Shown: positions 10,069 to 22,289 of the stretch, one piece after another | Layout: every line of letters starts with the position of its first letter | Numbering within the stretch: position 1 is the stretch's first letter | DNA from: Streptacidiphilus rugosus AM-16 | GTDB taxonomy: Bacteria; Actinomycetota; Actinomycetes; Streptomycetales; Streptomycetaceae | Assembly: GCF_000744655.1 (NCBI RefSeq) | Contig: NZ_JQMJ01000003.1 | Location: 930,001 to 994,000 of the forward strand | Length of the DNA: 64,000 nt | Direction of reading: 5' to 3' | The notes under the pieces: model-generated | The model's input: the letters and a program-made list of their open reading frames with translations, nothing else | What the model was told of the DNA's origin: nothing | Database searches by the model: none | Made by a program: the position numbers and the translations under genes

Positions 10069-11508
10069 TCAGTGGGGGTAGCGGGTGTTGGGGGGTGGGG
10101 GTGTGTCGGGTGGTGGGACGGCTGTGGGTCTGCCGTTGCTCATTTCGAGTTCCCAGCCGGTGTGGTGGAGGTCGGTGTGGTGTTCTCCGCAGAGGAGGGC
10201 CAGGTTGTTCAGGCTGGTGTGGCCGCCGTCGGCCCAGTGGGTGAGGTGGTGGGCTTCGCACCAGGTGGGTGGCCTTGTGCAGCCGGGCCAGACGCAGTGC
10301 CGGTCCCGGGCGATGACCGCGTCCCGCAGGTGCGCGGGCACGGTGCGGGTGGCGCGGCCGATGGAGACCGGCTTGCCCTGGCCCTTGGTGAGGATGACGC
10401 GGAGTCGGCAGTCGCAGGACTCCTTACGGGCCTGCCACCGCGGCAACCGGAACCCCCGCGTGGACGTGGCGACGCCGACGGGGTGCAGCAACCCCGACAC
10501 ATCATCGTTCCCGTCCGTTTCCGGGTCGTCGGTGAAGGTGGGGTGGGCCGGGCACTCCTCCCGCAGCGCGTCCAGATCCGCGATCACGGTGAAGTGGGGG
10601 CGCTGACCACCGGTGGTGGGGAGCTTGTCGCAGCCCAGCGCGAGGTCGGCGACCGCTTCGAGGGCGTCGCCCATCCGCTCCGGATGCGTCCGGGTTTCCC
10701 CCTCGACGGGGGTGCCCATCGCCGCCTCCAGCGCGACGCGCAGCTTCTCCCCCGCCACCGCCGACAGTTCGGCGGTCAGCACCCAGAACGGGTCATCGCT
10801 CGTGCCGGTCTGCGACAGCCTCGCGGTGGACCGGAACAGCGCCGGGGCGTCCTTCACCTGCGGCTCCTGCTCCTCGACCAGGTGGGCGCGGACCTGCCGG
10901 GCGGCCTGCTTGAGCTGCCCCAGGTGGAGTTCCTTCGCCTGCCCGACCAGGAGTTCTTCGGCCTGTTCGCGGGCCTGGGGGTCCTCCACGTCGGTGATCT
11001 CGTGGGCGATGACCTCCGCCTGGCTGGCGGAGAGTTCCCCGTCGGTGAGCGCGGTGCGGACGGTGCGGAGGGTGTCCAGGCGGCGGGCGCGGTCCACGAG
11101 CTGCTTCGCCGCCCGGTCGCTCAACTGGCCGTGCGTCTGCAGGAACCCCTTCGCCGTCCGGGAACGGGTGGCGGCGACCGCGCCGGTGCGGTCGAACACC
11201 GCGACCCGACGTGCCAGCTCCGCCCCCACCATCTCCTCGAAGCGGACCAGCGCGAGGAGCTGCTCGGCCTGGAACGGGGCGCCGGCCGCACACAGGGCGT
11301 CATCGTCCTCCGCCGCCAACGCGGCCAGGAACGTCATGCACGAGGCGGGCAGGGTCCGCAGCGGCTCGGTGCTCGCAGCACGGGCCTGGCGGGAGCTTGA
11401 GGGAGTCAGGGGATCCGCACGGAACACGTCCCCCAGCGAGGCAGAAAACACCTCACCCATGGACGCATCTCCGTCTTCACACCCGCCCCCGAACATCGAG
11501 GCGTCCAT
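10069..11508 (-). CDS. DUF222 / HNH endonuclease protein (13E12 family)
   Basis: 479 residues. The long N-terminal helical DUF222 domain ends near 340. The C-terminal HNH nuclease carries CVWPGC, the histidine pair of WCEAHHL, the Asn of SLNNLALLC and GEHH, so the zinc and catalytic residues look intact. This is the actinobacterial 13E12 family, abundant in mycobacteria and patchy in Streptomyces, which suggests acquisition. The ATG at 11508 was chosen because a CATAAT hexamer lies six bases before it; the frame is open a further 13 codons upstream. Proposed role is DNA cleavage in a mobile or repair context, unproven. No insertion sequence or phage gene flanks it. Confidence 0.82.
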   Translation of the reverse strand: MDASMFGGGCEDGDASMGEVFSASLGDVFRADPLTPSSSRQARAASTEPLRTLPASCMTFLAALAAEDDDALCAAGAPFQAEQLLALVRFEEMVGAELARRVAVFDRTGAVAATRSRTAKGFLQTHGQLSDRAAKQLVDRARRLDTLRTVRTALTDGELSASQAEVIAHEITDVEDPQAREQAEELLVGQAKELHLGQLKQAARQVRAHLVEEQEPQVKDAPALFRSTARLSQTGTSDDPFWVLTAELSAVAGEKLRVALEAAMGTPVEGETRTHPERMGDALEAVADLALGCDKLPTTGGQRPHFTVIADLDALREECPAHPTFTDDPETDGNDDVSGLLHPVGVATSTRGFRLPRWQARKESCDCRLRVILTKGQGKPVSIGRATRTVPAHLRDAVIARDRHCVWPGCTRPPTWCEAHHLTHWADGGHTSLNNLALLCGEHHTDLHHTGWELEMSNGRPTAVPPPDTPPPPNTRYPH

Positions 11509-11514
11509 AGAACA

Positions 11515-11520
11515 ATTATG
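11515..11520 (-). promoter_or_regulatory. Candidate -10 box for the HNH gene (leaderless layout)
   Basis: On the minus strand CATAAT ends six bases before the ATG at 11508. This spacing would put the transcription start at the start codon. No clear -35 is visible. Confidence 0.35.
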
Positions 11521-11570
11521 ACACCCCACCAAGCCCCACACCATCACTCACAAGAGTGAAAACCCCCAGC

Positions 11571-12272: not shown

Positions 12273-13967
12273 TCAGACCTGGGAGTTGACCTCCGTGGCC
12301 GCACGCTCGCCCGAGGCGACCGCCGCGTTCAGGGTCGCGTTGTCGACGTCGGTGTGTTCCCCCGCGAAGTGGATCCGGCCCTCCTGGACCGCCTCGTAGC
12401 CGGCGAATCCGGTGTACTGGCCGATCCCGTAGTAGTGGTACGCGCCCTTGTGCCACGGGTCGAGCGACCAGTGGTCCTCGTAGGCGAGGCCGTTGAACGC
12501 TGCGGTGGTCCCCGGGTAGACGTTCTCGATCTGTGAGAGGAACCAGTCGACGTCCGCCGAGGGGGCGGGGCCGTGGGCCGCGCCGGTGAGGACGGAGCGG
12601 GCGGTGTCGCCGCCGGGGAAGTTGACCAGAAGGGCGGGGCCGCCCTTCGCACCGAGCTGGACGGAGCCGTCCCAGGCCGTCTGGTAGCCGGTCGGGCCGG
12701 TGTTGCTGACGCCGTTGTAGCCGAGTGACGGCCAGGTCTTACCGGTCAGCTGGGTGACCAGCTTGGCGTTCTGGCCCATCCCCTGCTGCTGGATGGCGGT
12801 GAGCTTCAGCGCCGAGAGCCCGGATCGGCTCAGGTCGACGTCCCGCAGGGTGCTGAAGGGCAGCGCGAGCACCAGGTGGTCGGCCTGCGCGGTGACCGCC
12901 GGACTCCCGCCGCCCACGCAGGAGAAGGTGCAGCTGTAGCTGCCGTCGCTGTTCTGCACCACCGCTGTGAGCTGGTAGCCCTGCCGGACCGTCCCCGGGG
13001 GAAGCCGGCCCAGCATGCCGCTGACCAGCTGGTCGTTGCCGCCGATGAGGTGGTACTTCTCGTCGAAGCCGGCCCCGCCGTCGAAGGTCGAGGACGCGCC
13101 GAGGAAGCCGATCATGCCCAGCGCCGACGAGTGCGCGGGTTCGCCGCCGGACTGGAGCTGGATCGACTGGATCAGCTGGCTCAGCGCCGAGCCCGAGGGA
13201 AGGCCGATCTGGGTCAGGTAGTCGAGGCAGGAGAGCTGGTCCAGGCGTTTCGCCTCCGCGGTGGCGTTGTTCCAGCGTGGGGTGCCCATCGCGGCGTATG
13301 ACGCCGCAAACGCCTGGTAGGCCTCGGCGACCCAGTCGCTCTGCTGCTGTGCGCCGTCGTAGCGGCCGCCGTCGATCCAACCGGCGTAGGTGCCCGAGCC
13401 GAGGGTCCCGCCGTTCGCGTACTCGGTCTTGAGGCCGAGGGACTTGGCCAGGGCGAGTACGGAGGTGTCGGTCGAGCTGATGAAGGAGCCGCCGTGCTCG
13501 CTCACCATGCCGTTGGCGAAGAACCCGCGCAGCGACCAGCACCGACCGCCGATGTGCGTGGTGTCGGCCTCGTAGACGGTCGAGGCGATCGCTTTGGGCC
13601 CCGTCCACAACTGGTGTGCGCAGCGCAGTCCGGCCAACCCGGCCCCGACGATGACGACGCGCGGGGCGGTCGCGCTCGCCGCGGCCGCCGCCCCGGTGGC
13701 CGCCGCAGCCCTGGTCGAGCCCGCCAGTGCGGCTCCGGCCAGTCCTGCGACGGAGACCGCGCCTGCTCCGGCCAGTAGTTGACGCCGATTCAGCCGGAGC
13801 TCGGCGCGGTCCGCACGTTCGGCGCGCTCGCCGGCGACCTCGGCGACCGGCATGCCGCGACGCCGGGCCTCGCCGTGCAGGGAGAAGGCGAGGCCGAGGC
13901 GGTCCGGAGAACCGGTGCGGGTGGTCGGCTGGGGCGTGGTGCTCGATCTGGCAGGTTCCCGGTGCAT
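12273..13967 (-). CDS. Flavin-dependent amine oxidase, Tat-type N-terminus
   Basis: 564 residues. The FAD Rossmann motif VVIVGAGLAG is near residue 105, and the C-terminal FAD-binding region (GRIHFAGEHTDVDNATLNAAVASGERAA) is complete. This is the monoamine oxidase / L-amino-acid oxidase family, which oxidises an amine to an imine and releases ammonia and peroxide. NRRQLLAGAG at 60-69 is a twin-arginine motif before a hydrophobic stretch, implying export, although the n-region is long; the Met at residue 39 would give a normal-length signal. The ATG at 13967 has a good GAGAGGGA site. Its promoter carries one of the two 29-bp palindromes shared with the amidohydrolase operon. The substrate is unknown. 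Confidence 0.87.
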   Translation of the reverse strand: MHREPARSSTTPQPTTRTGSPDRLGLAFSLHGEARRRGMPVAEVAGERAERADRAELRLNRRQLLAGAGAVSVAGLAGAALAGSTRAAAATGAAAAASATAPRVVIVGAGLAGLRCAHQLWTGPKAIASTVYEADTTHIGGRCWSLRGFFANGMVSEHGGSFISSTDTSVLALAKSLGLKTEYANGGTLGSGTYAGWIDGGRYDGAQQQSDWVAEAYQAFAASYAAMGTPRWNNATAEAKRLDQLSCLDYLTQIGLPSGSALSQLIQSIQLQSGGEPAHSSALGMIGFLGASSTFDGGAGFDEKYHLIGGNDQLVSGMLGRLPPGTVRQGYQLTAVVQNSDGSYSCTFSCVGGGSPAVTAQADHLVLALPFSTLRDVDLSRSGLSALKLTAIQQQGMGQNAKLVTQLTGKTWPSLGYNGVSNTGPTGYQTAWDGSVQLGAKGGPALLVNFPGGDTARSVLTGAAHGPAPSADVDWFLSQIENVYPGTTAAFNGLAYEDHWSLDPWHKGAYHYYGIGQYTGFAGYEAVQEGRIHFAGEHTDVDNATLNAAVASGERAATEVNSQV

Positions 13968-14006
13968 GAGAATCCCTCTCTGGGGGACCGAACGATGCTG
14001 ACCGGG

Positions 14007-14036
14007 AGTGAACTGCTAGCGCAATGCTGTTGTCAA
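14007..14036 (-). promoter_or_regulatory. Candidate promoter of the amine oxidase gene
   Basis: On the minus strand TTGACA (14036-14031) lies at the centre of the palindromic operator, and TTCACT (14012-14007) follows after 18 bp. The start codon is 39 bp further on. Repressor bound at the operator would cover the -35 box. Confidence 0.55.
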
Positions 14037-14047
14037 CAGTGTTGCGC
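14019..14047. promoter_or_regulatory. 29-bp palindromic operator, copy 1 (amine oxidase promoter)
   Basis: Outer arms GCGCAA/TTGCGC and inner arms CTGTTG/CAACAG are perfect inverted repeats around a single central T, separated by 2-nt spacers. It matches the copy at 14879-14907 at 27 of 29 positions. It lies in the 142-bp gap between the TetR gene and the oxidase gene. The adjacent TetR protein is the obvious binder (inference). Confidence 0.8.
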
Positions 14048-14109
14048 GAACTGCCGCCGCGGCGGCCCCTCGCGGCGGCTTCGGGAACCCCGCCGCGAGG
14101 GTCGTCCGC

Positions 14110-14844
14110 TCACGCGCCGCCGCGCAGCTCCGTCGCCCTGCGTTCGATCGCGGTGATCAGCGCCTCGACCCTGGCGTCGTAGACCTGGTCCTGTGTCACC
14201 TCGGCCAACTCCGCCGCTGCCGCCGTGATCCGGGGAAAGGCCTGCGGATCGACGAGCCGGTACTCGCGGTTCCACGCGGACTCGTCCGCGGCCCGCGCCT
14301 CGGGGGAGAAGAGCAGGTAGGCGGCGCGCTGCCCGACCAGGGCCAGCAGCGAGTCGCCCACCATCCGGTAGTGGACCGCCGCGTCCGTGCCGGTCAGGCC
14401 GGCTTCGGTCACCGCCCCGAGGATCAGTTCGACGACGCGGAACTCGTTGGCCCGTCGCGTCGTCCGGCTCGCCATGGCGGAGGCCACGGCGGGGTAGCGC
14501 AGCGCGACCGCCAGCGAGCCGTCGGCCAGCGCGCGGATCCGGTCCTGCCAGCTCAGTCCGGCCGGGATGCTGTCCAGGACTTCGCCGAGCGTGCGGTCGG
14601 CGACCTCGAGCAGCAGCTCGTCCTTGTCGCGGAAGTGACGGTAGACGGCGGTCGGGTCGGCGCCGAGCTCCTCGCCGAGGCGGCGCACCGTGAAGGCGTC
14701 CGCGCTGCCGCGTGCGGCGATACGCAGACTCGCCTCGATGATCAGCTCGGGCGTCAGCTGGCTGCCCGAGCGCTTGCTCCGGGTGGACTTGGCGGGGGCG
14801 TCCGCGGGGGCGTGCGCGGCGGTTCCCAGGGGTGGCTTCGACAT
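14110..14844 (-). CDS. TetR-family transcriptional repressor
   Basis: 244 residues. The N-terminal HTH (about 30-80: LIIEASLRIAARG, FTVRRLGEELGADPTAVYRHFRDKDELL) is typical TetR and is followed by a helical ligand-binding domain. It sits between two gene sets that share an operator found nowhere else in the window, and reads divergently from the amidohydrolase operon. A candidate -10 (TACACT, minus strand 14859-14854) is nine bases before its ATG, right beside the operator at 14879-14907, so autoregulation is likely. The ligand is probably a substrate or product of the oxidase/amidohydrolase route. Confidence 0.9.
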   Translation of the reverse strand: MSKPPLGTAAHAPADAPAKSTRSKRSGSQLTPELIIEASLRIAARGSADAFTVRRLGEELGADPTAVYRHFRDKDELLLEVADRTLGEVLDSIPAGLSWQDRIRALADGSLAVALRYPAVASAMASRTTRRANEFRVVELILGAVTEAGLTGTDAAVHYRMVGDSLLALVGQRAAYLLFSPEARAADESAWNREYRLVDPQAFPRITAAAAELAEVTQDQVYDARVEALITAIERRATELRGGA

Positions 14845-14878
14845 GGTCCGGCCAGTGTAACGATGCGGGACAGTCCGA

Positions 14879-14907
14879 GCGCAATGCTGTTGACAACAGC
14901 GTTGCGC
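14879..14907. promoter_or_regulatory. 29-bp palindromic operator, copy 2 (tetR/amidohydrolase divergent promoter)
   Basis: Same outer arms GCGCAA/TTGCGC and inner arms CTGTTG/CAACAG as copy 1, with A as the centre base. It lies in the 106-bp divergent gap, 43 bp before the amidohydrolase ATG and 34 bp from the tetR ATG, and so can control both directions. Confidence 0.82.
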
Positions 14908-14918
14908 GCCGCTTCACT
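14890..14918 (+). promoter_or_regulatory. Candidate promoter of the amidohydrolase-transporter operon
   Basis: TTGACA (14890-14895) at the operator centre and TTCACT (14913-14918) are separated by 17 bp. The same pair, at 18 bp, occurs at the amine oxidase promoter. The ATG follows 32 bp after the -10. Confidence 0.55.
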
Positions 14919-14950
14919 CCTCCTCACCACCACACGGGGAGGGAACACCG

Positions 14951-16699
14951 ATGGCGCACCACCCACACCAGACGGCCGAGTTGGTCTTCCGAGGCGGGAG
15001 TGTCTTCACCGCAGCGACGCCGACCAGCACTCGCGCGGGAGCCTCCCCCGCAGCCCCCGTTCCCACAGCCCCTGTCCCCGCAGCCCCCGTTCCGGCGGCG
15101 GTCGCCGTCCGGGACGGCCGCATCCTCGCGGTGGTCCGCGACGAGTCCGAGCTGCGTGATCTCGTCGGGCCGGCCACGGAGGTCGTCGACCTCCAGGGCG
15201 GTCTGCTCGCGCCCGGGTTCCAGGACGCCCACGTGCACCCCGCCGTGGCCGGCGTGCAGATGCTCCGCTGCGACCTCGCGGGACAGCGCAGCATCGAGGG
15301 GTATCTCGCCACCGTCGCGGCCTACGCCGCCGCCCATCCGGACGCCGCGTGGATCAGGGGCGGCGGCTGGTCGATGGACGTGTTCCCCGACGGCATCCCG
15401 ACCCGCACGATGCTCGACTCCGTCGTTCCCGATCGGCCGGTGCTGCTGACCAACCGCGACGGCCACGGCGCGTGGGTCAACTCCCGTGCGCTGGAGCTGG
15501 CCGGGGTCGACCGGCGCACGCCCGATCCGGCCGACGGACGGATCGAGCGGGAGCCCGACGGGACACCCGTCGGCACTCTCCAGGAGGGCGCGATGAACCT
15601 GGTCGGCGACCTCGTGCCGGTCGCCACGGCGGAGGAGGCCCGTGCGGGGCTGCTCGTCGCCCAGCAGCACCTCTTCTCGCTCGGCGTCACCGCCTGGCAG
15701 GACGCCATGATCGGCGCCTTTCCCGGCAACCCGGACAACTTCTCGGTCTACGTCGACGCCGCCCGCGAAGGCGCGCTCCGGGCGCGCGTGGTCGGCGCGT
15801 TGTGGTGGGACCGCGAGCGTGGCGTCGAGCAGATCCCCGACCTGCTGGAGCGCCGTCTGCACGGCCGCGTCGGCCGGTTCGACGCCACCACCGTGAAGAT
15901 CATGCAGGACGGCATCGCCGAGAACTTCACCGCGAGCATGCTCGAGCCGTACCTCGACGGCTGCGGCTGCGCGACCGCCAACTCCGGCCTGAGCTTCGTC
16001 GATCCGGCCGTGCTCCGCGAAGCTGTGCGGCAACTCGACGCGCTCGGCTTCCAGTTGCACTTCCACGCGCTGGGCGACCGAGCGGTCCGCGAGGTCCTCG
16101 ACGCACTGGAACTGGCCCGTGCCGCCAACGGTGCGAACGACAACCGGCACCACCTCGCCCATCTCCAACTGGTGCACCCGGACGACCTCAAGCGCTTCGC
16201 CGAGGTCGGCGCCGCCGCCAACATCCAGGCACTCTGGGCGGCGCACGAGCCGCAGATGGACGAGCTCACCATCCCCTACCTGGGCGCCGAACGCGCCGCG
16301 CTGCAGTACCCGTTCGGCGACCTGGCCCGCGCGGGCGCCCGCCTGGTCGCGGGCAGCGACTGGTCGGTCAGCAGCCCCAACCCGCTCTGGGGCATCCACG
16401 TGGCGGTCAACCGCGCCGTGCCGGTCGACGCGCCGAACGCCGCGACCGACCGGCGGCCCCGGCGGCCGTTCTACCCCGAGCAGGCGCTCACCCTGGGGCA
16501 GGCCTTCACCGCGTACACGGCGGGGAGCGCCTGGGTGAACCACCTGGACCAGGAGACCGGCACCGTCGAGCCGGGCAAGTGCGCGGACCTGGTCGTGCTG
16601 GACCGCGACCCGTTCGCCGGTCCGCCCGAGGAGATCGGCGCGGCCAAGGTCCGGATGACCTTCATCGACGGACGCCCCGTCCACGTCGCCGACAGCTGA
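14951..16699 (+). CDS. YtcJ-type metal-dependent amidohydrolase
   Basis: 582 residues of the amidohydrolase_3 / YtcJ family. The metal motif is DAHVHP (His94, His96); later metal and catalytic positions are in HFHALGDRAV and GSDWSVSSPNP. These enzymes hydrolyse amide or related bonds, some releasing amines from N-acyl or formyl compounds; the exact reaction is not predictable. An odd Pro/Ala/Val insert near residues 33-50 comes from an 18-bp direct repeat (15046-15063 and 15076-15093). A GGGGAGGGA site precedes the ATG. First gene of a six-gene operon with a peptide/opine-type ABC importer. Confidence 0.88.
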   Translation: MAHHPHQTAELVFRGGSVFTAATPTSTRAGASPAAPVPTAPVPAAPVPAAVAVRDGRILAVVRDESELRDLVGPATEVVDLQGGLLAPGFQDAHVHPAVAGVQMLRCDLAGQRSIEGYLATVAAYAAAHPDAAWIRGGGWSMDVFPDGIPTRTMLDSVVPDRPVLLTNRDGHGAWVNSRALELAGVDRRTPDPADGRIEREPDGTPVGTLQEGAMNLVGDLVPVATAEEARAGLLVAQQHLFSLGVTAWQDAMIGAFPGNPDNFSVYVDAAREGALRARVVGALWWDRERGVEQIPDLLERRLHGRVGRFDATTVKIMQDGIAENFTASMLEPYLDGCGCATANSGLSFVDPAVLREAVRQLDALGFQLHFHALGDRAVREVLDALELARAANGANDNRHHLAHLQLVHPDDLKRFAEVGAAANIQALWAAHEPQMDELTIPYLGAERAALQYPFGDLARAGARLVAGSDWSVSSPNPLWGIHVAVNRAVPVDAPNAATDRRPRRPFYPEQALTLGQAFTAYTAGSAWVNHLDQETGTVEPGKCADLVVLDRDPFAGPPEEIGAAKVRMTFIDGRPVHVADS

Positions 16700-16764
16700 A
16701 CCCTTCTCCCCGACGCCGTCCGCTCCGCTCCTGCACCCGTTCCGCTCCGACCGGAGGCCACCCC

Positions 16765-18552
16765 ATGAGCACGCCCACGAGCTCCACCCCGCGCCGCACC
16801 GCCCCGCGCCGCACCGCCCGCACCGGATCCGCGCGCCGCACCCTCCTCGCCGTCTCCTCCCGCTCCGCAGTCTCCTCCCGCTCCGCCGTCTCCGCTCTCG
16901 CCGCCCTCTCCGCCCTCGCCCTGACGCTCACCGCCTGCAGCGGGACAGCCCACCCCGGCGGGGCCGGCGGCGCTTCGGGCACCGGGGCCGCCTACCGGCT
17001 CACCGCCAGGACCCCGGCGAGCGCCGGCGGCCTGGACTCCTTCACCTGGTCGCTCTTCGCCGAGCCGACGTCGATCGACTACGCCTACTCCTTCGACTAC
17101 CCGCCGAACACGGTGCTCGCCAACGTCTGCGAGAGCCTGCTGCGCTGGAACCCGGACCTCACCACCTCGCCGGGTCTCGCCTCCGCCGTCGCCAGCCCCA
17201 CGCCCACCACCTGGGTCTACACGATCCGCGGCGGCGTCCACTTCCACGACGGGACGGTGCTCACGGCGGACGACGTGGTCGCCTCGCTGCGCCGCAACCT
17301 CGACCCGAACGTCGGGAGCGACTGGGCCTACCCGTACCGCAACGTGAAGTCCGTCGACAAGACCGGGCCGATGCAGGTCACCGTCACCCTCAACACCCCC
17401 GACTCGACCTTCAACAAGTACATGGCGGCCAGTCCCGGCACGGTCGAGTCGGCCGCGACGCTGCGCAGCGACGGCAAGGACTACGGCAACCCGTCCAAGG
17501 GTGTGAACTGCACCGGACCGTTCGCCTTCTCCTCGTGGACGCCCGGTCAGTCCCTGGTGCTGACCCGCTTCGACGGCTACTGGGACCCGTCGCTGCGCGC
17601 CAGGTCCAAGCAGGTGAAGTTCGTCTTCCTCTCCGACGCCACCGCGCGCGTCAACGCCTTCCGGACCGGCGAGGTCGACGGCGGCTGGATGGTCCCGCCG
17701 GACTCCTACGCCCAGCTCGCCTCCTCCTCGGCGGGCAGGCTCTACTACGGGCAGAACACCACCGTCGCGGACGAGGTCGTGGGCAACCTCAAGGGCGTGC
17801 TGGGCAGCGCCGACGTGCGCCGGGCACTGCTGATGGCGATCGACCGGAAGGGCATCATCAAGGCCGGCGTCGCCGGGGTCGGCGACGTCGCGGACTCCCT
17901 GGTGACGCGGAACAACTGGAACGGCAGTCTTTCCGGCGGCAGCCTCGACGCCGTTCTCAAGGCGCTGCCCGCCTACCCCTACGACCCGCCGAAGGCTAGG
18001 CGGCTCGCCGCGAAGGCGGGAGTCGCGGGGCAGAAGGTGGTGATCGCGACCAGCCCGCTGGACTCGCAGACCACGATCATCACCCAGGCCGTCGCGCAGG
18101 CCGCCACGGCCATCGGCCTCAAGCCGGAGATCGACACGATCTCGTCCGACAAGTACACCGCGCTCTTCACCGACCCCGCCGCCCGCAAGGGCGTCGACCT
18201 CTTCCTGACCTTCTGGTACACCTCCATCACCGACCCGCTGGACATGTACGGCTCGCTGCGGACCGGCGCGTTCAGCAACTACGGCAACTGGTCGAACCCG
18301 CAGTTCGACGCCGCCGTCAACCAGGCCGTCGGCTCCGCCGATCCGGCCGCCCGCGCCGCCGCCGCGGCCAAGGCGCAGCAGATCGCCATGGACCAGCTGC
18401 CCTGGCTGCCGCTCTACACCGAGCCGGTCAGCGTCTTCCTCGGCAAGCGGATCACCGGCGTGCAGCCCTCCATCGACTACCTGTACTACCCCTGGGCGGC
18501 CGAGATCGGCGCACAGGGCAGCGGATCACAGGGCACGGGAGCGCAGGGATGA
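16765..18552 (+). CDS. ABC transporter substrate-binding lipoprotein (family 5)
   Basis: 595 residues. A long Arg/Ser-rich n-region leads to a hydrophobic core and the lipobox LTAC (Cys58 lipidated). The mature protein is an SBP_bac_5 domain (DppA/OppA class) with the typical ESLLRWNPDL start and VHFHDGTVLTADDVVASLRR. It captures small peptides or similar compounds outside the membrane. The ATG at 16765 follows GGAGG at 16753; the reading frame upstream of it is only a shadow of the amidohydrolase. The signal region has an 18-bp-period in-frame duplication (16852-16886). It overlaps the first permease gene by 4 bp. Confidence 0.92.
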   Translation: MSTPTSSTPRRTAPRRTARTGSARRTLLAVSSRSAVSSRSAVSALAALSALALTLTACSGTAHPGGAGGASGTGAAYRLTARTPASAGGLDSFTWSLFAEPTSIDYAYSFDYPPNTVLANVCESLLRWNPDLTTSPGLASAVASPTPTTWVYTIRGGVHFHDGTVLTADDVVASLRRNLDPNVGSDWAYPYRNVKSVDKTGPMQVTVTLNTPDSTFNKYMAASPGTVESAATLRSDGKDYGNPSKGVNCTGPFAFSSWTPGQSLVLTRFDGYWDPSLRARSKQVKFVFLSDATARVNAFRTGEVDGGWMVPPDSYAQLASSSAGRLYYGQNTTVADEVVGNLKGVLGSADVRRALLMAIDRKGIIKAGVAGVGDVADSLVTRNNWNGSLSGGSLDAVLKALPAYPYDPPKARRLAAKAGVAGQKVVIATSPLDSQTTIITQAVAQAATAIGLKPEIDTISSDKYTALFTDPAARKGVDLFLTFWYTSITDPLDMYGSLRTGAFSNYGNWSNPQFDAAVNQAVGSADPAARAAAAAKAQQIAMDQLPWLPLYTEPVSVFLGKRITGVQPSIDYLYYPWAAEIGAQGSGSQGTGAQG

Positions 18553-19505
18553 GCCTCGCCGTCGCCGTGCTGCGCAGACTGGCCGGGATGGCGGTGACCC
18601 TGCTGGTGACCTCCTTCCTCGTGTTCTCCTCGCTCTACCTCGCGCCGGGCGACCCGGTCTCCTTCCTGGTCCGCGGCCGCAGCCCGAGCCCGGCCGAACT
18701 GGCGGCGATCCGCCGGCAGTTCGGCTTCGACCAGCCGTTCCCTGTGCGCTACTGGCACTGGCTGGACGCGGTCCTGCACGGCGACTTCGGCCGCTCCTAC
18801 CTCTTCCACGAGAGCGTCGGCGCGGTGATCTCCTCCAGGCTCCCCGCCTCGCTGCTGCTGGTCGGTGTGTCGACGGTGCTGATCGCGGTGGTCGGGATCG
18901 GCGCGGGTGCGCTCGGCGCGCTGCGGCGCGGGACGCGCACCGACAAGACGGTGCTGCTGCTGATGACGGTCGGCGCCGCGGTGCCCTCCTTCGCCGCCGC
19001 CATCGTGCTGCGGTCGGTGTTCGGGGTTCGGCTGGGCTGGTTCCCGACCATCGGCAACGGCACCGGCTTCGTCGACCAGCTCCACCACGTGGCGATGCCC
19101 GCCGTCGCCCTGTCGGTCACCTTCATGGCCCTGGTCACCCGCGTCTCCCGGACGGCGATGCTGGACGAACTGGGCCGGGAGCACGTCGAGGTGGCGCTGA
19201 GCCGGGGGACCGGCCGGTGGAGCGTGCTGCGCCGGCACGTGTTCCGCAACGCGCTCGGCCCGATCGTCACCGTCTCCGGCCTGCTGGTCTCCGGGATGCT
19301 CGTCAGCACCGCGATCGTCGAGACCGCCTTCGGGATGTCCGGGATCGGCTCGCTGTTGGTGCAGTGCGTCGACGAGCTGGACTTCCAGGTCGTGCAGGCG
19401 TTGGTGCTGCTGGTCGTCGCCGTCTTCGTCGTCGTCAACACCCTGGTCGACCTGCTGTATCCGCTGATCGACCCGAGGGTCGCCGCCGGGGGAGGAGCCC
19501 GATGA
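18549..19505 (+). CDS. ABC transporter permease, DppB class
   Basis: 318 residues with an N-terminal helix, a periplasmic loop and about five further helices. The EAA loop (about 210-230: EVALSRGTGRWSVLRRHVFRNALGPIV) contacts the ATPases. It matches the first permease of dipeptide/oligopeptide/nickel importers. The ATGA overlaps with the genes before and after place it in one translationally coupled unit. Confidence 0.93.
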   Translation: MSLAVAVLRRLAGMAVTLLVTSFLVFSSLYLAPGDPVSFLVRGRSPSPAELAAIRRQFGFDQPFPVRYWHWLDAVLHGDFGRSYLFHESVGAVISSRLPASLLLVGVSTVLIAVVGIGAGALGALRRGTRTDKTVLLLMTVGAAVPSFAAAIVLRSVFGVRLGWFPTIGNGTGFVDQLHHVAMPAVALSVTFMALVTRVSRTAMLDELGREHVEVALSRGTGRWSVLRRHVFRNALGPIVTVSGLLVSGMLVSTAIVETAFGMSGIGSLLVQCVDELDFQVVQALVLLVVAVFVVVNTLVDLLYPLIDPRVAAGGGAR

Positions 19506-20428
19506 GCAGCGCCACCACCCCACCACGGCCGGAACCCTCGCTGCAGCCCCGGCCCGCCTCGGGCCTGCAGCGTCGCCCCGGGGCGGCCTGGCTGCGCCGC
19601 GGCCTGGGCAGCGGCTTCCTCCGGTACGGAGTGCTGTTCCGGATCTGCCTGGTGCTGCTGGTCCTGTTCGTGCTGGTGGCGGTGTTCGCGCCCTGGCTCG
19701 CGCCGCAGGACCCCACGATCGGCGACTTCGCCGACACCATGGCCGGTCCCGGGGCCGACCACTGGCTCGGCACCGACCAGGGCGGGCACGACACGTTCTC
19801 CGCGCTGCTGGAGGGGGCCAGGACCAGCCTGCTGGGGCCGCTGGGCGTGGTCGTCTTCTCCAGCCTCAGCGGCATCGCCGTCGGCCTGTTCAGCGGCTGG
19901 CGCGGCGGACGCGTGGACGCGGTGATCGGCCGCATGCTGGACGTCCTGTTCGCGTTCCCCTCCCTGCTGCTGGCGATCCTCGCCGTCGCGCTGTTCGGCA
20001 AGGGTCTCGGCGCGCCGGTGCTGGCCATGGCGGTCGCCTACATGCCCTACACGGCCCGGCTCGTGCGCAGTCTGACGGCGCAGCAGAAGAACCGCCCCTA
20101 CGTGTCCGCCTACCTGGTCCAGGGCCACGCCCCGGCGTACGTGGCGGCACGAAGGCTGCTGCCGAACATCGCACCGACCGTGCTCGCGCAGTCCACCGTC
20201 AACTTCGGCTACGCGCTGCTGGATCTGGCCGCGCTCTCCTTCCTCGGCCTGGGCGTGCAGCCGCCGACGCCCGACTGGGGCGCGATGATCAACCAGGGCC
20301 AGGGGGCGGTGCTCGCCGGACAGCCGCTGTCCGCGGTGCTGCCGGCCCTGGCCGTGGTGCTGGTCGTGGTGGCCTTCAACGTGGTCGGCGAACAGCTCGG
20401 CGACCAGCTCGCCGGAAGGGAGTCCTGA
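19502..20428 (+). CDS. ABC transporter permease, DppC class
   Basis: 308 residues. A Pro/Arg-rich cytoplasmic start precedes the first helix (about 45-65), then the DppC hallmark HWLGTDQGGHDTFSALLEGARTSL. The EAA loop reads SAYLVQGHAPAYVAARRLLPNIAPTVL. It is the partner of the DppB-class subunit. Its ATG overlaps the previous stop by 4 bp and its stop shares one base with the next start (TGATG). Confidence 0.93.
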   Translation: MSSATTPPRPEPSLQPRPASGLQRRPGAAWLRRGLGSGFLRYGVLFRICLVLLVLFVLVAVFAPWLAPQDPTIGDFADTMAGPGADHWLGTDQGGHDTFSALLEGARTSLLGPLGVVVFSSLSGIAVGLFSGWRGGRVDAVIGRMLDVLFAFPSLLLAILAVALFGKGLGAPVLAMAVAYMPYTARLVRSLTAQQKNRPYVSAYLVQGHAPAYVAARRLLPNIAPTVLAQSTVNFGYALLDLAALSFLGLGVQPPTPDWGAMINQGQGAVLAGQPLSAVLPALAVVLVVVAFNVVGEQLGDQLAGRES

Positions 20429-21471
20429 TGTCATCGGCATCCGCATCAGCGTCCGCATCCGTGCACCGCGCCGAGGCCCCCGCCGCGCTGCTCCGCCTGG
20501 ACGCGCTGACGGTCGAACTCCCCGGCGCGGCCAGGCCGGTGCTCGACGCGGTGTCGTTGAGCGTCGCGGCGGGCGAGGTCGTCGGGCTGGTCGGCGAGTC
20601 GGGCTCGGGCAAGTCGGTGACCGCGCGTTCCGCGCTCGGCCTGCTGCCGCACGGCGCGCGGACCGCCGGCCGGATCCTGGTCGACGGCGTGGACCTGGTC
20701 GGGGCCGACGCCGCCCGGCTGCGCGAGGTGCGCACGGCGACCGCCGCCATGGTCTTCCAGGACCCGAGGGCCGGCATCAATCCGGTGCGCCGCGTCGGCG
20801 ACTTCCTCACCGAGCCGCTGCGGCTGACCCACCGCTGGTCCCGCAGGCAGGCCGACGCCCGTGCCCTCGACCTGCTCGCCGCCGTGGGCCTGCCCGATCC
20901 CGAGCGGCAACTGCGGCAGTATCCGCACGAGTTGTCCGGCGGCATGCTGCAAAGGGTGATGATCGCCGGAGCCCTGGCGGGAGAGCCGCGGCTGCTGCTC
21001 TGCGACGAGCCGACGACGGCGCTGGACGTCAGCACCCAGGCGGAGATCCTGGCCCTGCTGGGTCGGCTCCAACGCGAGCGCGGCCTGGGCATGTTGCTGA
21101 TCACCCACGACATCGAGCTGGCCGCAGCCTCCTGCGACCGGGTCTACGTGATGTACGCGGGCCGCATCGTCGAAGCCGCGCGCGCCGACGAGCTGTTCGG
21201 TTCGCCGCGTCACCCGTACACCGTCGGCCTGCTGGGCTCCTCACCGCCGCTGACCGGGCCGCTGGAACGGCTCCGGCCGGTCCCCGGCGCGCCGATGGGG
21301 CTGAACGAGTCCGCACCCGGCTGCGCCTTCGCCGCCCGGTGCGCGTTCGTCGACCCCGGTCGCTGCGACCGGGCGCAGCCCGCACTGCTGCCGCTCCCCG
21401 AAGCGCCGGGCCGCTCCGCCGCCTGCGTCCGCGCGTCGGAACTCCCGCTCATGACGGAGGCCCACCCGTGA
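20428..21471 (+). CDS. ABC transporter ATP-binding protein, DppD class
   Basis: 347 residues. The N-terminus has a Ser/Ala repeat, then Walker A GESGSGKS, the signature as LSGGM, Walker B LLLCDEPTTALD, and the C-terminal oligopeptide-transporter domain with a cysteine cluster (CAFAARCAFVDPGRC) typical of DppD/OppD. It powers uptake together with the next gene. An in-frame AST run (SSASASASASVH) from short DNA repeats makes the very N-terminus variable. Confidence 0.92.
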   Translation: MSSASASASASVHRAEAPAALLRLDALTVELPGAARPVLDAVSLSVAAGEVVGLVGESGSGKSVTARSALGLLPHGARTAGRILVDGVDLVGADAARLREVRTATAAMVFQDPRAGINPVRRVGDFLTEPLRLTHRWSRRQADARALDLLAAVGLPDPERQLRQYPHELSGGMLQRVMIAGALAGEPRLLLCDEPTTALDVSTQAEILALLGRLQRERGLGMLLITHDIELAAASCDRVYVMYAGRIVEAARADELFGSPRHPYTVGLLGSSPPLTGPLERLRPVPGAPMGLNESAPGCAFAARCAFVDPGRCDRAQPALLPLPEAPGRSAACVRASELPLMTEAHP

Positions 21472-22289
21472 CGACGCCCACCCCGCTGCTCGAAGTCGCC
21501 GGGCTGCGCAAGACCTACGGCGCGACCGTGGCCGTCGACGGGGTCTCCTTCGCGCTGCCGCCGGGCGGTGCGCTCGGTCTGGTCGGCGAGTCGGGATCCG
21601 GCAAGACGACCACGGCCCGGATGCTGGTCGGGCTGGAGCGTCCCGACAGCGGCTCCATCCGCGTGCTCGGGACGCCGCTCGCGCCCGCCGTCCACGGCCG
21701 GGCCGCCCGCCTGGCCCGGGCGAAGGCGGTGCAGATCGTCTTCCAGGACCCCTACCTCTCACTGGACGCCAGGATCGGCGTCGGGGCGACGATCGACGGG
21801 GTGCTGCGGCTGCACGGGCTGGGCGACCGCGTCGCCCGTGCGGCCAGGGTCCGCGAGCTGCTCGACCAGGTCGGCCTCGGCGAGCGCGAGGCGGCCGCGC
21901 TGCCGCGCCGGCTCTCCGGCGGCCAGCGGCAACGGGCGGCGATCGCCCGCGCGTTGGCGGTGGAACCCGCCGTGCTGGTGCTGGACGAGGCGGTCTCCGC
22001 GCTCGACGTCTCGGTGCAGGCGCAGGTGCTGAACCTGCTCGCCGACATCCGCCGGGAGGCGGGTATCGGCCTGGTGTTCGTCAGCCACGACCTCGCGGTG
22101 GTCCGCTACGTCTGCGACGAGGCCCTGGTCCTGCACCGCGGCCGGCCCGTGGAGCACCGCCCGATGGCGGAACTCCTCGACGCCCCGGCCCATCCGTACA
22201 CCCGGCTGCTGCTGGCCTCGGTCCCGCACCCGGGCTGGGACCCCGACGACATCGCCCGCCGCCGCCGCGAACTGAGCCGCCAGGGTTGA
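21468..22289 (+). CDS. ABC transporter ATP-binding protein, DppF class
   Basis: 273 residues with Walker A GESGSGKT, signature LSGGQRQR and Walker B VLVLDEAVSALD. It is shorter than most DppF proteins and lacks the C-terminal Cys-rich extension. The GTG at 21468 is chosen because it has GGAGG at 21456-21460 and overlaps the previous stop; the reading frame is open far upstream but that stretch is a shadow. Last gene of the amidohydrolase-importer operon. Confidence 0.9.
   Translation: MTTPTPLLEVAGLRKTYGATVAVDGVSFALPPGGALGLVGESGSGKTTTARMLVGLERPDSGSIRVLGTPLAPAVHGRAARLARAKAVQIVFQDPYLSLDARIGVGATIDGVLRLHGLGDRVARAARVRELLDQVGLGEREAAALPRRLSGGQRQRAAIARALAVEPAVLVLDEAVSALDVSVQAQVLNLLADIRREAGIGLVFVSHDLAVVRYVCDEALVLHRGRPVEHRPMAELLDAPAHPYTRLLLASVPHPGWDPDDIARRRRELSRQG

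Follow-up and report, generated by a model that had tools for sequence, protein, structure and literature searches.

How a compact group of divergent genes around a tetR gene is switched on, and what compound it handles, are the questions raised by a stretch of the Streptacidiphilus rugosus AM-16 genome (contig NZ_JQMJ01000003.1, positions 930,001 to 994,000; these 64,000 nucleotides are referred to below as the window). The group occupies positions 12,273 to 22,289 of the window and comprises genes for a flavin adenine dinucleotide (FAD) amine oxidoreductase (the oxidase), a TetR regulator, a YtcJ-type amidohydrolase (the hydrolase) and an ATP-binding cassette (ABC) importer. We read it as a TetR-repressed catabolic cassette with operator-controlled promoters, an importer, a cytosolic hydrolase and an accessory oxidase that would be exported by the twin-arginine translocation (Tat) pathway and act before import. 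To this reading we assign a probability of roughly 0.7. The cassette most likely imports and degrades an amide- or amine-containing compound.

Predicted operators and their association with TetR

A first-pass annotation of this DNA had pointed to two 29-bp palindromes, one on either side of tetR, that differ at two places. Their coordinates (Table 1) and the two differences, at positions 15 and 22 of the 29-mer, were verified. The annotation had also proposed a genome search, which now confines the palindrome to this locus: with up to three mismatches allowed, the pattern matches just these two sites in the 9,002,860-base genome (4 contigs), and its reversed control matches nowhere in the same sequence. 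One hundred dinucleotide shuffles of the window gave no match, as against the two real ones.

The association of the palindrome with TetR was assessed in 297 Streptomycetaceae genomes, with orthologues of the regulator accepted at E-values up to 1e-60. An orthologue occurs in 24 genomes and a palindrome match in 26, with both in 23. The only genome with an orthologue and no match (G001) codes for a TetR that is 72% identical to the present one. Conversely, the matches in 3 of the 273 genomes without an orthologue (G155, G088 and G289) are all one sequence with a different core, GCGCAAAGCTGTGACCAGCAGTTTTGCGC. This other conserved palindrome lies at loci L023, L024 and L026 of these genomes, respectively, and no TetR cassette of this kind is present beside it at L080 and L081, the two loci with the other core that were viewed. 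Within the genus Streptacidiphilus, the pair of sites is found in all five genomes with a close TetR orthologue, and neither site in the nine genomes whose TetRs are just 32-40% identical.

Part of this co-occurrence is linkage, because the site adjoins tetR, and the sites are related by descent, so that the counts are not independent. The second operator copy and the conserved symmetry add weight beyond linkage. Judged by these comparisons, the adjacent TetR very probably uses both palindromes as operators, and the view of the annotation that such predicted operators are restricted to the locus is supported by the genome search and by the 297-genome survey alike. The length of 29 bp, the alternating CAACA/TGTTG units and the 12-bp longer variants at two related loci (L065 and L070) hint at binding by a dimer of dimers.

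Distribution of the cassette and of its oxidase

The same arrangement around tetR is seen at 22 loci (L058-L079) from other genomes that contain both TetR and the palindrome; one of them (L066) runs into a contig end, permease C is not displayed in L077, nor is the binding protein in L079. The oxidase is present in 20 of the 22, the exceptions being L078 and L079. A scan of GTDB genomes with a TetR alignment, from which the best 80 of 184 relatives were kept (78 distinct named loci), placed the cassette at 40 of the 78 loci (L082-L121), with TetR proteins 63-91% identical. The hosts belong to Streptacidiphilus, Kitasatospora, Streptomyces, Embleya, Yinghuangia, Nonomuraea and Catenulispora; several of these loci end at contig ends, and some of the genomes are also in the first set. 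Many of the 38 other loci (L122-L159) have a hydrolase and importer, and in these 38 neither an oxidase, within the stretch examined, nor such an operator, at up to five mismatches, was found.

Among the 40 loci, all 15 with the oxidase carry two operators (up to five mismatches), and all 25 without it carry a single one, between tetR and the hydrolase gene; three of the latter (L111, L113 and L121) lie near a contig end, with nothing visible past tetR in L121. On this evidence from gene content, the usual core is composed of seven genes (tetR, the hydrolase gene and five transporter genes), to which the oxidase with its own operator is accessory. Its presence or absence changes state at least six times on a tree of the hydrolase and TetR (the count covers 40 rows, 16 of them with the oxidase, after omission of six of the 40 loci and two of the five outgroup rows; 42 rows were drawn). 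No recurrent replacement gene was recognized by eye among the first few open reading frame starts past tetR in 20 of the 25 oxidase-free loci, and close relatives share their neighbors there (L096 with L098, and L091 with L095). The first-pass annotation had treated the oxidase as a step of the pathway; since it was not found in 25 of the 40 orthologous loci, it is not obligatory, and the hydrolase and oxidase therefore need not share a substrate. Its occurrence outside the cassette was judged from a plasmid collection of 72,556 records.

In Streptomyces fildesensis (L058/L105) and Streptacidiphilus melanogenes (L076/L082) the oxidase frame is broken or shortened and the operator is kept; assembly errors are possible in these cases.

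The entire eight-gene cassette is also carried by a 291,692-bp linear plasmid of Streptomyces sp. NBC_01001, which suggests that the cassette can move. Overall, comparison of the loci indicates that it is a conserved, patchily distributed catabolic module, and not a new kind of system. The term self-contained, used in the first-pass annotation, is thus right for the regulon; the arrangement is not unique to this genome, as relatives and the linear plasmid possess it too. Beside the plasmid cassette (L180, NZ_CP108713.1, 1359-5398) there are a second FAD amine oxidase, an APC permease and an alpha/beta hydrolase, and a plasmid of Streptomyces sp. NBC_01361 likewise pairs an APC permease with an amine oxidase.

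Predicted promoters built on the operators

Identical sites were dropped before the promoter motifs were counted, leaving 52 of 65 hydrolase-side and 26 of 38 oxidase-side sites. At the center of each operator in the window is a TTGACA that reads outward from tetR. The outward TTGACA recurs in 77 of the 78 nonredundant sites, with TTGGCA in L058 as the one exception, and in none does it read inward. The outward orientation of the center is telling, because symmetric binding by a dimer would not call for it. In 74 of the 78 sites, TTCACT lies 17-18 bp downstream of TTGACA. On the hydrolase side the spacing is 17 bp in 46 and 18 bp in 3 of the 52 sites, and three variants of the motif occur, TTCAAT (L073), TTGACT (L079) and TTCGAT (L115); on the oxidase side it is 18 bp in 21 and 17 bp in 4 of the 26, the remaining site being that of L067. 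The combination TTGACA-N17/18-TTCACT is found exactly twice in the 9.0-Mb genome, both times here, compared to one occurrence of its reversed control. By this pattern of conservation, the proposal that the operators supply the -35 box of both outer promoters holds for the predicted promoters.

The annotation that made this proposal overlooked a third predicted promoter, that of tetR itself, whose predicted -10 box is located beyond operator 1. In 48 of 52 nonredundant loci a TANNNT box, mostly TACACT, stands exactly 19 nt past the operator; the distance is 20 nt in two (L077 and L088) and 31 nt in two (L065 and L070). In the last two, where the operator is 12 bp longer, TTGCGC is again found 19 nt from the tetR box. 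The tetR start codon follows 9 nt past TACACT, and the tetR mRNA is therefore predicted to be leaderless or nearly so. In Streptomyces coelicolor, leaderless transcripts arise at 21.0% of the primary start sites, and TetR regulators are mentioned as examples (PMC4895711).

The usual -10 element of Streptomyces is TANNNT, present at 80.4% of the S. coelicolor start sites (PMC4895711). TTCACT departs from it, and would therefore be either an atypical -10 or a portion of some other site. In the latter case, TTGACA would be kept purely as a TetR contact and TTCACTCC would bind a second regulator, e.g., a GlnR-like protein; a GlnR-bound site of Streptomyces venezuelae is listed as TTCACTCCGGCGAAAC (PMC3087709), and a weak CAAC comes after TTCACTCC. 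Nevertheless, a symmetric operator provides no reason for outward TTGACA in 77 of 78 sites, kin and not independent as these are, and 17-18 bp is the spacing of a promoter. Moreover, the palindrome on the oxidase side of L067 is degraded, and one of its three TTGACA copies is still 17 bp from TTCACT. We consider a second-regulator site unlikely and retain the operator-embedded promoters. A GlnR box as such was rejected at TTCACTCC, since the second half-site does not fit GTnAC.

The 12-bp operator extensions (L065 and L070) and the three TTGACA copies (L067, oxidase side) suggest growth in 12-bp units. Of 38 more distant loci, with TetRs 32-41% identical, 14 were tried in an automatic palindrome search, which was positive in eight, seven of them with TTGACA or TGTCAA. 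These seven palindromes are located in the tetR-hydrolase intergenic regions of L130, L141, L146, L150, L151, L154 and L158, and operator-embedded -35 boxes may therefore be more general in this TetR group.

Gene content and protein features

The gene families named in the first-pass annotation (TetR, YtcJ-type hydrolase, flavin oxidase and ABC importer) are all supported by Pfam (Table 1). It had counted five genes in the plus-strand operon; Pfam and the reading of the open frames give six, coding for the hydrolase, the binding protein, two permeases and two ATPases. Stop and start overlap at the four junctions that join the binding-protein, permease and ATPase genes. The importer set of the Opp/Nik type is complete, with SBP_bac_5, two BPD_transp_1 and two ABC_tran modules, the latter with oligo_HPY. 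Adjoining the cassette is a DUF222 gene (window 10069-11547) that weakly matches HNH endonucleases.

Table 1. Genes and predicted regulatory elements of the cassette, with positions in the window
Feature	Position	Strand	Remarks
FAD amine oxidoreductase (oxidase), PF01593	12273..13967	-	Pfam 124.3 bits (cut-off 19.8); accessory gene of the cassette
TTCACT, predicted -10 of oxidase promoter	14007..14012	-	18 bp spacer
Operator 2 (predicted), oxidase side, 29-bp palindrome GCGCAATGCTGTTGTCAACAGTGTTGCGC	14019..14047	.	Sequence, genome search, relatives
TTGACA, predicted -35 of oxidase promoter, inside operator 2	14031..14036	-	Outward in 25/26 nonredundant sites
tetR, predicted local repressor, TetR_N + TetR_C_1	14110..14844	-	Pfam 40.6 bits (cut-off 24) and 29.1 bits (cut-off 21)
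TACACT, predicted -10 of tetR	14854..14859	-	19 nt from operator 1; start codon 9 nt beyond the box
Operator 1 (predicted), hydrolase/tetR side, 29-bp palindrome GCGCAATGCTGTTGACAACAGCGTTGCGC	14879..14907	.	Outer arm TTGCGC is a possible tetR -35 box
TTGACA, predicted -35 of hydrolase operon, inside operator 1	14890..14895	+	Outward in 52/52 nonredundant sites
TTCACT, predicted -10 of hydrolase operon	14913..14918	+	17 bp spacer
YtcJ-type metal-dependent amidohydrolase (hydrolase), Amidohydro_3 PF07969	14951..16699	+	Pfam 324.5 bits (cut-off 29.7)
Family-5 solute-binding lipoprotein, SBP_bac_5	16765..18552	+	Pfam 223.6 bits; lipobox-like LTACSG
ABC permease B, peptide/nickel class, BPD_transp_1	18549..19505	+	Start overlaps stop of binding-protein gene
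ABC permease C, BPD_transp_1	19502..20428	+	Start overlaps stop of permease B
ABC ATPase D, ABC_tran + oligo_HPY	20428..21471	+	Pfam
ABC ATPase F, ABC_tran + oligo_HPY	21468..22289	+	GTG start overlapping stop of ATPase D; Pfam

Residues H94, H96, K316, H372, H404 and D470 of the hydrolase are invariant in 29 aligned rows. We take them to be the metal-site residues, the pattern of YtcJ-like amidohydrolases being HxH, K, H, H and D. The structure model of the hydrolase has a predicted local distance difference test (pLDDT) score of 92, and its best fold matches are 3icj and 3igh. No export signal is visible by eye in the N-termini of 12 aligned hydrolase rows.

In the oxidase, R61 and R62 are invariant in the 14 and 11 rows of two alignments that share some genomes. 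The pair belongs to a Tat-like signal at residues ~59-90, in which RR is followed by a hydrophobic stretch and to which the Pfam TAT_signal match is weak (E 0.006, below the family cut-off). The signal lies behind an N-terminal extension of ~57 residues, with a block, ARRRGMPVAEVAGERA, that is recognizable in most rows (not in L059 and L073). As in coding DNA, the extension varies most at third codon positions (0.30, 0.25 and 0.42 at positions 1, 2 and 3 in 16 sequences). Its stretch at window 13797-13919 (residues ~17-57) is long for a Tat leader, and Pfam matched just TAT_signal, behind it.

Among solved structures, L-amino acid oxidases and NicA2/Pnao-like enzymes are nearest by sequence (~60-80 bits). 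K402 is conserved throughout 14 rows; the L-amino acid oxidase residue with which it aligns is also a lysine, presumably the flavin lysine. A lysine at the flavin site is nearly universal across the flavin amine oxidoreductase superfamily, and Tat-bearing members without a neighboring cytochrome c are mostly fast with O2 (PMC12224317). No CXXCH motif was found in open stretches of at least 80 codons at 5-30 kb of the window. The type of amine (nicotine) dehydrogenase that uses cytochrome c (NicA2, Pnao) was rejected, there being no neighboring CXXCH protein in that interval.

Proposed mechanism and order of reactions

The following scheme joins what the comparison of loci supports, i.e., the gene order, the co-occurrence of operator and TetR, the promoter-like conservation and the linkage of the oxidase with its operator, to steps that we infer, i.e., TetR binding, repression, inducer release, oxidase export and the order of reactions. 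One or two TetR dimers would bind each predicted 29-bp operator. Operator 1 would cover two divergent promoters, those of the hydrolase/importer operon and of tetR itself (autoregulation), and operator 2 would cover the oxidase promoter. As each operator holds the predicted -35 box of the operon that it faces, bound TetR would exclude RNA polymerase. An inducer, either a substrate or a product of the pathway, would free TetR, and all eight genes would be switched on. The lipoprotein and ABC transporter would then take up an amide-, peptide- or amine-containing compound, to be cleaved by the cytosolic YtcJ-type hydrolase. In lineages that possess the oxidase, the presumably Tat-exported FAD enzyme would act ahead of import, on an amine at the outer side of the membrane, and would probably hand its electrons to O2.

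The first-pass annotation, correct as to the enzyme families, had placed the steps in another order: uptake of an N-acylated amine would come first, hydrolysis inside the cell would release its amine, and deamination by the oxidase would follow. Amide-cleaving enzymes are indeed known in the YtcJ-like family (PMC10699109, PMC13081902), and the oxidase and hydrolase have operators in common. This order is at odds with the localization signals, i.e., an invariant RR with a hydrophobic stretch in the oxidase as opposed to a hydrolase with no visible export signal; furthermore, the freed amine would have to exit the cell again, and no oxidase was found at 25 of the 40 loci. We regard it as improbable. 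From the same signals we propose that the oxidase acts first, on the outside, that import follows and that the hydrolase completes the pathway, an order that is itself read from the sequences. That the palindromes are chance features or sites of another regulator, with the neighboring TetR acting elsewhere, is very improbable: adjacency to tetR could by linkage alone explain part of the co-occurrence; against this reading stand the two copies per oxidase-bearing cassette, the near-perfect co-occurrence with TetR over 297 genomes and the lack of any further site in the genome.

Several points weigh against the proposed TetR-repressed cassette. The regulation, including binding and expression, is read from DNA. 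The sites share descent and adjoin tetR, and any conserved neighboring DNA would co-occur in the same way. TTCACT is without the A of TANNNT, which is the chief doubt on its role as a -10 (PMC4895711). The Tat assignment combines the RR motif with a Pfam match below the cut-off, and the structure model of the oxidase is poor (mean pLDDT 46). Finally, 25 of the 40 loci yielded no oxidase, and one locus (L110) matched tetR and the hydrolase only, with no importer.

A bolder extension of the scheme, which is possible but doubtful, is that the 29-bp operator and TTCACT form an operator-promoter cartridge of ~40 bp by which accessory genes are drawn into a mobile catabolic cassette working in two compartments: the exported flavin oxidase would pre-process an amine-bearing amide outside, and the imported product would be cleaved inside. 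The 6-bp half units and the 12-bp lengthening would then suggest stacked TetR dimers, and the -10 would be of an unusual TTNNNT type.

TetR control as such is ordinary. The locus offers a testable eight-gene regulon, with predicted operators and three predicted promoters, that is conserved across several actinobacterial genera. The oxidase, which is gained or lost along with its operator, offers a case from nature of how a gene joins a local regulon, and the identity of the inducer would give a function to an uncharacterized YtcJ-type hydrolase/importer pair.

Comparison with known systems

No described system with this arrangement was found in the open-licence PMC papers searched. Its parts were compared individually with known proteins. 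Like NicA2/Pnao-type enzymes and L-amino acid oxidases, the oxidase belongs to PF01593 and has a putative Tat-like signal, and its K402 aligns with a lysine of the latter. The similarity to these enzymes is just ~60-80 bits. Unlike for NicA2 and Pnao, no neighboring CXXCH protein was seen in the interval searched, and unlike the aligned L-amino acid oxidases, the oxidase has F162 in place of an arginine. We take this arginine to be the residue that binds the carboxylate in those enzymes.

The hydrolase shares its family and the conserved metal-site pattern with YtcJ-like/Amidohydro_3 hydrolases such as NfdA, SmELA/SgELA and the Pyrococcus furiosus protein 3icj. The epsilon-lysine acylase SmELA is classed in the YtcJ-like family (PMC10699109), and PF07969 also takes in N-substituted formamide deformylase (PMC13081902). 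The likeness to NfdA and the acylases is drawn at the level of the family, and 3icj and 3igh, which are the nearest solved structures, are uncharacterized proteins, 23-25% identical to the hydrolase. As in Opp/Nik peptide/nickel importers, there are an SBP_bac_5 protein, two permeases and two ATPases; unlike in those importers, the binding protein and both permeases reach no NCBIfam cut-off.

A tetracycline repressor was rejected as the identity of TetR (NCBIfam equivalog NF010319, 42.2 bits against a cut-off of 265). Like TetR/TetA, QacR and CprB of Streptomyces, the cassette has a local TetR and a predicted palindromic operator between divergent genes. The operators bound by dimers of dimers are 28 bp long for QacR and 22 bp for CprB (PMC4150764), and the 29-bp operator falls within the size range of such sites. 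Unlike in these systems, the predicted targets are of a catabolic type, and a second copy of the operator accompanies an accessory gene.

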